A DNA stretch of 64,000 nt from Gloeopeniophorella convolvens (lineage: Eukaryota > Basidiomycota > Agaricomycetes > Russulales), in the NCBI GenBank assembly GCA_022496205.1, contig WTXD01000008.1, positions 620,001 through 684,000 on the forward strand, in the 5' to 3' direction. The position numbers and the translations under genes are program-made. The notes under the pieces were generated by a model. The model did not search any database, was not told where the DNA came from, and worked only from the letters and a program-made list of their open reading frames with translations. Positions 60,051-63,809 of this stretch are shown here, piece by piece (the stretch's first letter is position 1; each line of letters opens with the position of its first letter).

Positions 60051-60064
60051 TTGTATCGCTACAC

Positions 60065-60764
60065 TAGTCTACATCAACTTAAGGGGGTTTGGGTGGGGTA
60101 CAATTGGTTTCCCGTTTCGGACGAGCCATGTGCCACATTCGAAGGGTTGTGTCATTCCTAGTAGCATAATACAGTCACATGACCGGACGCGCCCCCAAGA
60201 CGCGTCCATTTCCTTTGTCCCAATAATCAGTAAACTCTGCTCCTTCCATGGGCTCCCTAGTCTTAGTTTCCATTCAGAGGAGAACCAGGGCTATTTTAGT
60301 CAATTATCTGTCTACTTGGTGGCCAGATGGGCCATGCGAGGCAGGTCAACGCTACGGAACCCACGCAAGAAATATGTCAAGACGAACGAGAACAACGAGA
60401 ACATGGTTTATATATTGACCAGATCAGACCTTTAGGATGTCCCTTTGGTGTAGTGGTTTTGTCCAATGGTTGCACATTCGTGAGTATTATGCAGGTTCGA
60501 ACCCGGATGGGGTGTCTTTTTTATTTGCATTGAGCGAGTGCTCAGCACATGCCACCCTCATCGTGTCATTGCCGTGATGAGTAGCCGGATATATCACACA
60601 TTTCTGATTACACGCTACTTCAAAACAATAAGAGACGAGGCAACGCGATAATCTAAATGAGGAAGGTGTGTGTACCCCCCTCAAACCCCCTTAAGTTGAT
60701 GCAGACCTTATCCATCGCGGAACGACTGTCTTCCGCGATCGGCATAAGGCCGGCAACGGAGACT
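60065..60764 (+). mobile_element. 700-bp non-autonomous element, left copy
   Basis: The element begins TAGTCTACATC and ends GGAGACT (inverted AGTCT/AGACT tips). Within it, the first 35 bases (TCTACATCAACTTAAGGGGG...) recur inverted at about 60670-60706, and the last 58 bases hold a strong hairpin (ATCGCGGAA/TTCCGCGAT). It contains a tRNA-like Pol III unit (60435-60522) and no transposase. It is exactly repeated in inverse orientation at 60900-61599. Its left target duplicate is ATCGCTACAC (60055-60064); the matching copy is found reverse-complemented at 60890-60899, next to the other element. The 10-bp duplication and inverted tips suggest a MULE-type non-autonomous family, which is inference. 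Confidence 0.85.
60435..60522 (+). ncRNA. tRNA-like Pol III unit (SINE-like or degenerate tRNA) in left element
   Basis: A perfect A box (TGGTGTAGTGG, 60446-60456) is followed after 37 bases by a perfect B box (GGTTCGAACCC, 60494-60504) and then a TTTTTT terminator (60517-60522). The D, T and acceptor stems do not pair well (only a weak GATGTCCC/GGGGTGTC pairing), so it is not a normal tRNA. It is more likely a tRNA-derived sequence that could still be transcribed by RNA polymerase III. Confidence 0.55.
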
Positions 60765-60899
60765 AGTACGCAGCTGGGTTTGGTCGAGCCGGTAGGGTTC
60801 GCAGCCTTTCCCGGGGGGCGTGGTTGGGACTTCTCCATTGTCCAAGACGTCCAGAGTGCGCCGCGGAGCCTGAAAGTCAACGGACAGACGTGTAGCGAT
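60765..60899. repeat. Spacer between inverted elements, flanked by exchanged target duplicates
   Basis: The 135-bp spacer begins AGTACGCAGC (reverse complement of GCTGCGTACT at 61600-61609) and ends GTGTAGCGAT (reverse complement of ATCGCTACAC at 60055-60064). Flipping the spacer would give each 700-bp element a matching direct 10-bp target duplication, so the spacer appears to be inverted relative to its original orientation. Confidence 0.85.
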
Positions 60900-61599
60900 A
60901 GTCTCCGTTGCCGGCCTTATGCCGATCGCGGAAGACAGTCGTTCCGCGATGGATAAGGTCTGCATCAACTTAAGGGGGTTTGAGGGGGGTACACACACCT
61001 TCCTCATTTAGATTATCGCGTTGCCTCGTCTCTTATTGTTTTGAAGTAGCGTGTAATCAGAAATGTGTGATATATCCGGCTACTCATCACGGCAATGACA
61101 CGATGAGGGTGGCATGTGCTGAGCACTCGCTCAATGCAAATAAAAAAGACACCCCATCCGGGTTCGAACCTGCATAATACTCACGAATGTGCAACCATTG
61201 GACAAAACCACTACACCAAAGGGACATCCTAAAGGTCTGATCTGGTCAATATATAAACCATGTTCTCGTTGTTCTCGTTCGTCTTGACATATTTCTTGCG
61301 TGGGTTCCGTAGCGTTGACCTGCCTCGCATGGCCCATCTGGCCACCAAGTAGACAGATAATTGACTAAAATAGCCCTGGTTCTCCTCTGAATGGAAACTA
61401 AGACTAGGGAGCCCATGGAAGGAGCAGAGTTTACTGATTATTGGGACAAAGGAAATGGACGCGTCTTGGGGGCGCGTCCGGTCATGTGACTGTATTATGC
61501 TACTAGGAATGACACAACCCTTTGAATGTGGCACATGGCTCGTCCGAAACGGGAAACCAATTGTACCCCACCCAAACCCCCTTAAGTTGATGTAGACTA
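60900..61599 (-). mobile_element. 700-bp non-autonomous element, right copy (inverted)
   Basis: Reverse complement of 60065-60764; every frame I compared between the copies is identical, so insertion or gene conversion is recent. Its right target duplicate is GCTGCGTACT (61600-61609), and the partner lies reverse-complemented at 60765-60774. It lies about 180 bp upstream of the zinc-finger gene start at 61777, so the insertion is in or next to that gene's promoter. Confidence 0.85.
61142..61229 (-). ncRNA. tRNA-like Pol III unit in right element
   Basis: Mirror image of 60435-60522: A box at 61208-61218, B box at 61160-61170, and a T-run terminator (AAAAAA on the plus strand, 61142-61147). 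Same caveats about poor tRNA folding. Confidence 0.55.
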
Positions 61600-61609
61600 G
61601 CTGCGTACT

Positions 61610-61776
61610 GTTTCCTGTACACGCGCCTGCTCTGTGGGTGTCTGCGATCAACAACGCTTGTTTGGCTACTTGGACCTAGATAAAAGCGCTCACCCACCCG
61701 CTCTTCTTCTTTGCTCATCCTCTATCGACTACACCTGCCCTTCACCACGAACTACAAACAGCGATAACCATCTACA
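61610..61776 (+). promoter_or_regulatory. Proximal promoter and 5' UTR of the 61777 gene
   Basis: A TATA-like ATAAAAG near 61679-61685 lies about 95 bp upstream of the ATG, followed by a pyrimidine-rich stretch (CCACCCGCTCTTCTTCTTTG) typical of fungal transcription starts. The transposon pair ends just upstream. Confidence 0.4.
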
Positions 61777-63809
61777 ATGTCCAACTACACCCCCAACTCC
61801 TTCCCCCAGATTGCCACCTCCTTCGCCGGCCCCACACCCCGTGCCACCCTTTCGGGAGCCTCGTACAATAGTGCTGGGGCCTCCATGGCGGCCCACGGAA
61901 ACGGGAATGTCAATGCCACTCATGCCACCTTCGGCCTCACCACCGGCATGAACGATCCCCACGACAACGGCGCAGGGAGTTTCGTTCATGGACAAAACGG
62001 CAGACCGTATACACTAGCGAACGCCTTCGGGCAAGACTTTCCAGTGGTTCCTCGCGTCGACCCCCAGGTTCGGACCACCGAACTTACCTATCCAGATTGG
62101 CCCTCGTACGCCAGCTTGTTGCCCCCGGCTACTCCATATACAGCTCCTGCCATCAATCCCAACACGTTCATGCCCAGTGCCACCCTCCCGGTACCTGACC
62201 TCAATGAACCTTGGCCCACCTCCACTTGCGCTTCTCGTATTGTGCTCAGGCCATGGGCAAACGCTGATCAGAGCCGAGTCGACACGGTACCGCAGACTAC
62301 GCCTCGTAAGTGACATCCTCCTATTTGCAGAGTCCCCCCGTATGCTCATTTGTATCGTAGCGCTCTTCAGTGGGCACTCGTTCTTGTCCTCCGAAAGCAG
62401 TGCCTGCGGGTTGGGGACCCTCCTTACGCCACCCGATTATATGGGCCTCCCATTTGCTGTGAGTTGTTTGACGCCTCCTTGGCAAGCTTCACTGACTTGT
62501 CTCCCTTGGAGCATCCAGATCAACTTGGGACATGGGAGGCAATGGCTCTCGTACCAGCGGCAGTGGGGGGAAAACTGCTCATCTGGCGGTCATGGCACTG
62601 CAATACCACCCGCAGCGTCGGGAGGTTATCCCTTTGATGGCCCCGTGCCTGGGCAACAGGCCCCATCCACGTTTGACGACTTTATCCCTAGTAACGTCCC
62701 GAACATGGGGTAAGCACATCGTCATAACCTTCTCCGTCATGATATTTATATCTCACGCCCTCGCTTTTAGGCAAATTGTCCCACTCACCGATGTCCCTGG
62801 CTCCCCCGCACCCGGCCCAGTCGCGCCAATGGCTAGCGCAGTCAGCCCCATCGTGCCATCCCAGCTGTCATGGGCTTTCCCTGTGCCCGCGCCTGCACCA
62901 CTCATGACATCTCGCACCAGGGCATGCGATGGCCAGGAAGAAGTCATCCATAACCTCCCCGAGTTCCCCATTTCCCAGCTTCTCCCCCAAACCACACTGA
63001 GGCGGCCCACATCAAACGGAGGGAAGACAAAGTCTGGGGTCAGCACCAACTCAGCGAGGATAGGGCCTACCCCCAGGCTTCGCAAATCCACCGCTGGAAA
63101 GACCCCAGCATCGACTAATTACAAATCCAGGCCGGTCAGCCACAAAGCGAATATGCTTGCGGACTTGGCCGCACAGGGACTTTGCAACCAGTTTCAGCTA
63201 GGGCCTATGGCTCAGCAGGAATTGAGAGTAAGCCCTGTGCCGGTGCAGCTGACCTGGCACCAAGAGGAGGGAGGAGAAGAGATATCGCTGCCCGCAGACG
63301 CGGAGGTGCAGCACGAGACCGCGTGCCGGGGCGCGGAGGCATCTAAACCCCCGAAAGGCCCCTTCAAGATGCCATCCAGAATGCAAGAGCGAGCGCGCAT
63401 CCTGCTTAGAGTGTCGGAGGGCGAGGAGTCTCTCGGCGTCGTCGACAACATCCAATGCCGGCTGTGTGGAACGTATTCTGGGTCCTGGCCAAGCTGGACC
63501 CGCCACGTCAACGCGCACGAAAGCCACCCCAATAAGGTGCACAAGTGCGCCTGCTGCGGGCTGTGGTTCGCACGCAAATCCCGCCTTGAATCCCACCAGA
63601 AAGAGGGGAATGATCGGTGCGGCGTGGATGTAACGTCAGACCAGCTCAAGCATAACAAGGAGTACGTCGAGAGGAAGCTCGAGGAATTCAACGAGGAGTT
63701 GCTGAAGCAGCCGAGGGGATCTGGGCGACTCCAGATGATCAGCTTTGACAAGACGGTTGAGGATAAGTTGAAGGGAGGAGTGAAGAAAAACATTCACCGC
63801 CAGTCGTAG
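61777..63809 (+). CDS. C2H2-like zinc-finger protein with long disordered head
   Basis: Putative nuclear DNA-binding protein. It starts MSNYTPNSFPQIATSFAG with a Pro/Ser/Asn/Gly-rich head. An intron at 62306-62360 joins ...TVPQTTP to LFSGHSFLSSESSACGLG. Another is likely after YMGLPFA (donor gtgagt near 62459), and one at 62710-62770 joins NVPNMG to QIVPLTDVPGSPAPGP. The C-terminal fingers are CRLCGTYSGSWPSWTRHVNA-H and CACCGLWFARKSRLESHQKE...C, followed by a charged helix (YVERKLEEFNEELLKQ) and VKKNIHRQS. It is not an obvious close paralogue of the zinc-finger pair at 8596 and 12487. Its promoter is crowded by the inverted element pair. Confidence 0.7.

Follow-up and report, generated by a model that had tools for sequence, protein, structure and literature searches.

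On contig C383, two copies of a short non-autonomous DNA transposon, E1 and E2, lie in inverse orientation on either side of a 135-bp spacer, and the spacer is reversed relative to a second contig, C126, and to a diverged paralogous block. The account that we favor as a whole, with a probability of about 0.6, is that E1 and E2 are internally deleted AcademH-like relatives, that E1 came first and E2 was inserted nearby, and that the inverted copies then exchanged and flipped the spacer. The window, that is, the whole stretch of 64,000 nucleotides that was analyzed, comprises bases 620001-684000 of C383 in a 36.68-Mb assembly of 404 contigs from a basidiomycete fungus, very probably Gloeopeniophorella convolvens of the Russulales. 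The features that the argument needs are as follows, in window coordinates except for the last.

60055..60064, plus strand: left copy of the E1 target repeat, ATCGCTACAC; its partner is now inverted at 60890-60899
60065..60765, plus strand: E1, a 701-bp non-autonomous transposon (TAGTCT...AGACTA) whose last A is common to the flank
60067..60102, plus strand: 36-bp inverted repeat, 5' copy in E1 (GTCTACATCAACTTAAGGGGG...)
60671..60706, plus strand: 36-bp inverted repeat, subterminal 3' copy in E1, paired with 60067..60102 at 92%
60707..60765, plus strand: 3' tail of E1, with a hairpin; solo copies occur elsewhere in the genome
60765..60899, minus strand: spacer of 135 bp, inverted relative to C126 and the paralogous block
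60899..61599, minus strand: E2, the inverted transposon copy, with A at element position 77 as in E3
61600..61609, plus strand: outer copy of the E2 target repeat, GCTGCGTACT; its partner is now inverted at 60765-60774, and it is single and uninterrupted in C126
61777..63809, plus strand: gene region 3' of E1-spacer-E2, with an ATG at 61777
C383:684062-684761 (L010:5563-6262), 62 bp past the window end: E3, a third copy, with its direct repeat CCGTATTCC intact and A at position 77

The original prediction described two identical elements with exchanged target-site duplicates, at 60065-60764 (plus) and 60900-61599 (minus) around a spacer at 60765-60899. These positions were borne out, and so were the exchanged flanks: 60055-60064 is the reverse complement of 60890-60899, and 61600-61609 that of 60765-60774. 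Alignment of the two arms upheld their inverse arrangement but not their identity, as they agree at 699 of 700 positions and differ at element position 77. Reversing the spacer gives direct repeats for both E1 and E2; since the spacer is now reversed, the four target-repeat copies are wrongly paired. Chance can be excluded as the source of this pattern, because an independent contig carries the spacer in the predicted orientation.

That contig, C126 (17,589 bp), is collinear with C383 over 54156-71790 in the window frame at 99.7–99.9% identity, which drops to 97% over a stretch at the left end of C126, and is probably the other nuclear haplotype. Across three blocks totaling about 16 kb, the two contigs are separated by 9 substitutions and about 12 small indels. 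C126 has E1 alone, with ATCGCTACAC in direct orientation on both sides; its spacer is opposite to that of C383, with no differences at the 135 positions after reversal; GCTGCGTACT occurs once, and the sequence is uninterrupted at the sites of E2 and E3. The proposed spacer inversion is thus supported by an unflipped spacer, E1 direct repeats and an empty E2 site on C126, and the paralogous block has the spacer in the same orientation as C126. Among the results named beforehand as speaking against the prediction was an empty allele whose spacer would already lie as it does now on C383; it was looked for, and the opposite state was found. No haplotype with E2 and an unflipped spacer occurs among the matches listed in this assembly, so that insertion and inversion are not observed as separate steps.

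Seven of the nine substitutions between C126 and C383 cluster between E2 and E3, within 2.44 kb (window frame 61610-64061), and all seven are transitions (binomial P of about 5e-5, computed after the cluster was seen). Gene conversion from the paralog was considered as the cause and is not supported: at the seven sites the paralog has the C383 base once and the C126 base four times and is unaligned twice, several of the local alignments behind these counts being weak. The gene region within this interval contains long open frames at 61768-62313, 62018-62713 and 62496-63809, and is flanked by E1-spacer-E2 upstream and by E3 (window frame 64062-64761) beyond.

A diverged paralog of the element-bearing region lies further along the same contig (C383:690703-698067, compared with 54–64 kb in the window frame); it is about 70–79% alike and usable as an outgroup. 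The relevant block, at approximately 695.77–696.51 kb of C383 (L033:5771-6510) and 15 kb away, has no element at either place. Its alignment runs across both flanks and the spacer between them in the orientation of C126, with 306 of 403 columns alike. The alignment score is 345, vs. 180 with the spacer flipped; for the spacer alone the scores are 149 in the C126 orientation and 17 in the other. The E1 target is recognizable in the block; around the E2 target, an alignment gap takes up 12 bases, so that the block shows the absence of an element there and not the E2 target itself. C126 and the paralogous block together give the order of events: an empty site, then E1, then E2 plus the inversion. 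E1 was therefore present first, with its 9/10-bp duplication.

At least nine full-length copies were found in the assembly with a 700-bp query, a lower bound given that 40 of 75 candidates were scored: E1, E2, and E3 on C383, the C126 copy of E1, a single copy on each of C372, C231 and C24, and two copies on C334. The count of target duplications leaves out four partial copies (two on C2, one on C1, one on C223). Direct repeats of 9 bp or more flank all seven other full 701-bp copies, counting E1 on C126, and the two 6.04-kb copies described below; among the full-length and 6.04-kb copies only E1 and E2 on C383 lack them. The expectation that further genomic copies would have direct duplications of 9–11 bp thus held, with 9 or 10 bp at all seven non-rearranged copies. 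The base preceding the left 9-bp repeat is not the A that follows AGACT in four cases, namely C372, the second C334 copy (C334b), C24, and the 6.04-kb element on C334; the same applies to the base preceding the 10-bp repeat of C231 (CTGTAAGAAT). In C372, C334b, C24, and C231, therefore, the terminal A belongs to the element, making its length 701 bp (TAGTCT...AGACTA), and the element is better described as 701 bp long with a duplication of 9 bp, sometimes 10 bp. The inverted repeat at its true ends is only about 6 bp, and the long repeat is subterminal on the 3' side. Among seven further insertions, three have uninterrupted matches on the other haplotype (C231 vs. C1, C334a vs. C314, and the 6-kb copy on C334 vs. 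C309). The flank of the insertion on C356 lies within a dispersed repeat that has many uninterrupted copies. Nothing else was found for the remaining three among the matches listed (40 of 79 candidates scored); for two of these three the insertion's own flanks are likewise not listed, so that this absence is hardly informative.

The shared bases bear on how E2 arose. T at position 256 and C at position 686 occur in E1 (on both haplotypes), E2, and E3 only, among the nine full-length copies, and A at position 77 in E2 and E3 only. A pattern scan found T at position 686 in both 6.04-kb elements and in the majority of the solo 3' tails discussed below, and C in at least three of these tails (C383:336939, C342:70964, and C90:480213), so that the claim of lineage specificity is limited to full-length copies. 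Since T256 and C686 are common to E1–E3, E2 and E3 descend from the local E1 lineage, and this weakens the idea of two independent insertions, which is supported only in part; a one-step replicative inversion would also yield the same structure.

In the history that we prefer, the starting point is E1 alone with its direct duplication, the state seen on C126. On the C383 haplotype, a second copy of the local lineage took up a position 135 bp away and in opposite orientation, presumably as E2 entering GCTGCGTAC by ordinary insertion. Subsequently, the two inverted 701-bp copies may have exchanged strands, through a crossover or through template switching during replication, which would flip the spacer and leave copy number unchanged. 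Inversion between inverted transposon copies within a chromosome is a general process, and the C383 structure with its exchanged repeats is the outcome expected from it; the present case differs in being tiny, with a 135-bp spacer, and in that the pre-inversion state is kept on C126 and in the paralogous block. We prefer insertion followed by a flip because known processes suffice.

Alternatively, a one-step replicative intramolecular transposition of the Shapiro type could have joined the ends of E1, still unexcised, to GCTGCGTAC at a distance of 135 bp, keeping E1, making E2 in inverted orientation, inverting the DNA in between, and leaving one repeat copy at each outer junction. We consider this unlikely. 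It would lead from the C126 state to the C383 state in a single event, and it agrees with the membership of E2 in the E1 lineage, marked by T256 and C686, which only E1–E3 have among the full-length copies, with the presence of E1 on both haplotypes and of E2 and E3 on one, and with the RecQ-type helicase that a partner element supplies. However, the seven other 701-bp copies and the two long ones have simple direct repeats, with no other exchanged pair among them, and E2 differs from E1 at position 77, a base that it shares with E3, so that E3 is an equally possible source of E2. The mismatch itself is compatible with a crossover at any point to the right of it and with the absence of one, so that the two-step and one-step histories are not separated by the differing base. 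Replicative transposition of the bacterial Tn3/Mu/IS6 type does yield adjacent inversions, and the locus resembles their products in its two inverted copies, the reversed DNA between them, and one repeat copy per outer junction; the likeness is one of end product, whereas simple insertions predominate among the copies of this element. To our knowledge, strand-transfer inversions made by replication are not an established behavior of eukaryotic DDE transposons, and this lack of precedent counts against the single-step history.

It is very unlikely, in our view, that E1 and E2 are real and the 135-bp spacer was merely placed backwards between the 701-bp inverted repeats during assembly. Such repeats presumably exceed the length of short reads, and there is no direct support for an error. 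Against it, contigs reach 2.11 Mb, the 36 kb of C383 inspected contain no ambiguous N, and haplotigs at 99.7–99.9% identity were kept separate; long gap-free contigs and separated haplotigs suggest long reads, which would be able to span the 1.54 kb. Finally, alternative (reversed-ends) transposition through the facing ends of two elements, as with maize Ac/Ds, for which an excerpt of a published account reports inversions with target duplications at the junctions (PMC8225341), is barely plausible: E1 and E3 are indeed in direct orientation 4 kb apart, but such events rearrange existing ends and do not simply explain a third complete element, and the direct repeat of E3 is intact and its site uninterrupted in C126.

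E1 and E2 are related to a 6.04-kb DNA transposon of AcademH-like type and are shortened by internal deletions; two copies of the 6.04-kb element (L020:1661-7700 and L019) carry a RecQ-type helicase gene and a DUF6589 gene on opposite strands, in convergent orientation. The family had been predicted to be MULE-like on the basis of 10-bp duplications. MULE target duplications are 9–11 bp, and the 9–10-bp duplications of the element fall within this range; because MULE and AcademH have them in common, they are not decisive. A Pfam scan (E up to 0.001) of seven ORFs in the 6.04-kb element gave DEAD, Helicase_C, and DUF6589 only, with no MULE/Mutator transposase domain, so the MULE identity of the partner was rejected; the terminal inverted repeat of about 6 bp, with the long one subterminal on the 3' side, is a further difference. 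The helicase ORF (L020:2271-3581) scores 33.3 bits for DEAD (cut-off 26) and 20.4 for Helicase_C, below the cut-off of 23.5, and matches RecQ-family PDB chains (best 4tmu, E 2.2e-17). The predicted model of the DUF6589 protein resembles DDE transposases, making this protein a transposase candidate. A search of one literature library for DUF6589 found no papers.

Two other groups were considered and do not fit: KolobokH, whose target duplication is TTAA, in view of the varied 9- or 10-bp repeats, and Helitron/Helentron, which insert without target duplication, in view of the 9-bp duplications, although the 3' hairpin and asymmetric repeats are reminiscent of the latter. AcademH, reportedly defined within the Academ superfamily by Kojima in 2020 in Mob DNA 11:15, fits best, the comparison being with its description in the literature. 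Excerpts of two papers describe AcademH as having 9- or 10-bp target duplications and an encoded helicase (PMC10045372) and as low-copy in Basidiomycota (PMC10799480). The element agrees in its 9- or 10-bp duplications (seven of seven short copies, two of two long ones) and its partner in the helicase. The partner also encodes the DUF6589 protein with its predicted DDE-like fold. Possible differences are that the transposase candidate here is DUF6589, encoded convergently to the helicase gene, that the inverted repeats are asymmetric, and that there is a 3' hairpin tail.

Within the element, tRNA-like words were noticed by eye at 60437-60520 (A- and B-box-like, then a T run). ARAGORN on the window, Rfam at gathering scores, and Rfam at E up to 1 gave no tRNA in the element, and Rfam at E up to 10 again gave none, with one weak lncRNA match only; the strand over 60437-60520 folds no better than shuffles (z −0.33). 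A tRNA- or SINE-derived content is thus unproven, as it has no support from ARAGORN, Rfam, or folding.

The last 57–59 bp of the element fold into a hairpin (z −4.73), and the subterminal inverted repeat lies before it. Genome-wide, at least 39 solo 3' tails have an intact 3' end (L042-L076, L081, and L022; two duplicates dropped, the source lists being lower bounds). Direct repeats agreeing at no fewer than 7 of 9 positions flank 22 of the 39, vs. about 1.2 expected from 200 re-pairings of flanks, and 17 have none at this threshold. Their 3' end is fixed, and the left end varies from tail to tail: 24 of the 39 start at element positions 643–647 (tail-query 7–11), most others start inside the hairpin, and none extends left of about position 639. 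One tail of only about 31 bp has a perfect 9-bp repeat. For four of eight solo tails checked, search matches of 73–85% span the site but lack the tail (C57 for L081; C388 for L047; C35 and C179 for L073; C268/C266 for L056). These tails may be remnants left after loss of the part between the inverted repeats, or truncated insertions. At L061 (C346:76900-78000), two solo tails stand nearly in tandem, the second beside the flank of the first.

The locus on C383 provides an unusually complete record of an inversion made by transposons, with outgroup, intermediate, and final state present in one assembly at base resolution and with a gene adjoining. Among the titles and opening lines of abstracts listed by literature searches, none describes an event of this kind in an Academ element. 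It also links the Pfam family DUF6589 to a predicted DDE-like transposase fold and to a helicase-bearing mobile element. A bolder possibility, which we hold to be decidedly unlikely, is that AcademH-like transposons at least sometimes nick and replicate instead of moving by cut and paste, their own RecQ-type helicase opening the fork. The step from E1 to E1-flipped spacer-E2 would then be one adjacent inversion of the Shapiro type, here in a eukaryote, and the solo tails would arise where copying or repair jumps over the inverted-repeat stem. The findings also raise the question of whether helicase-bearing elements transpose replicatively, and why the 57-bp hairpin tail so often occurs alone.
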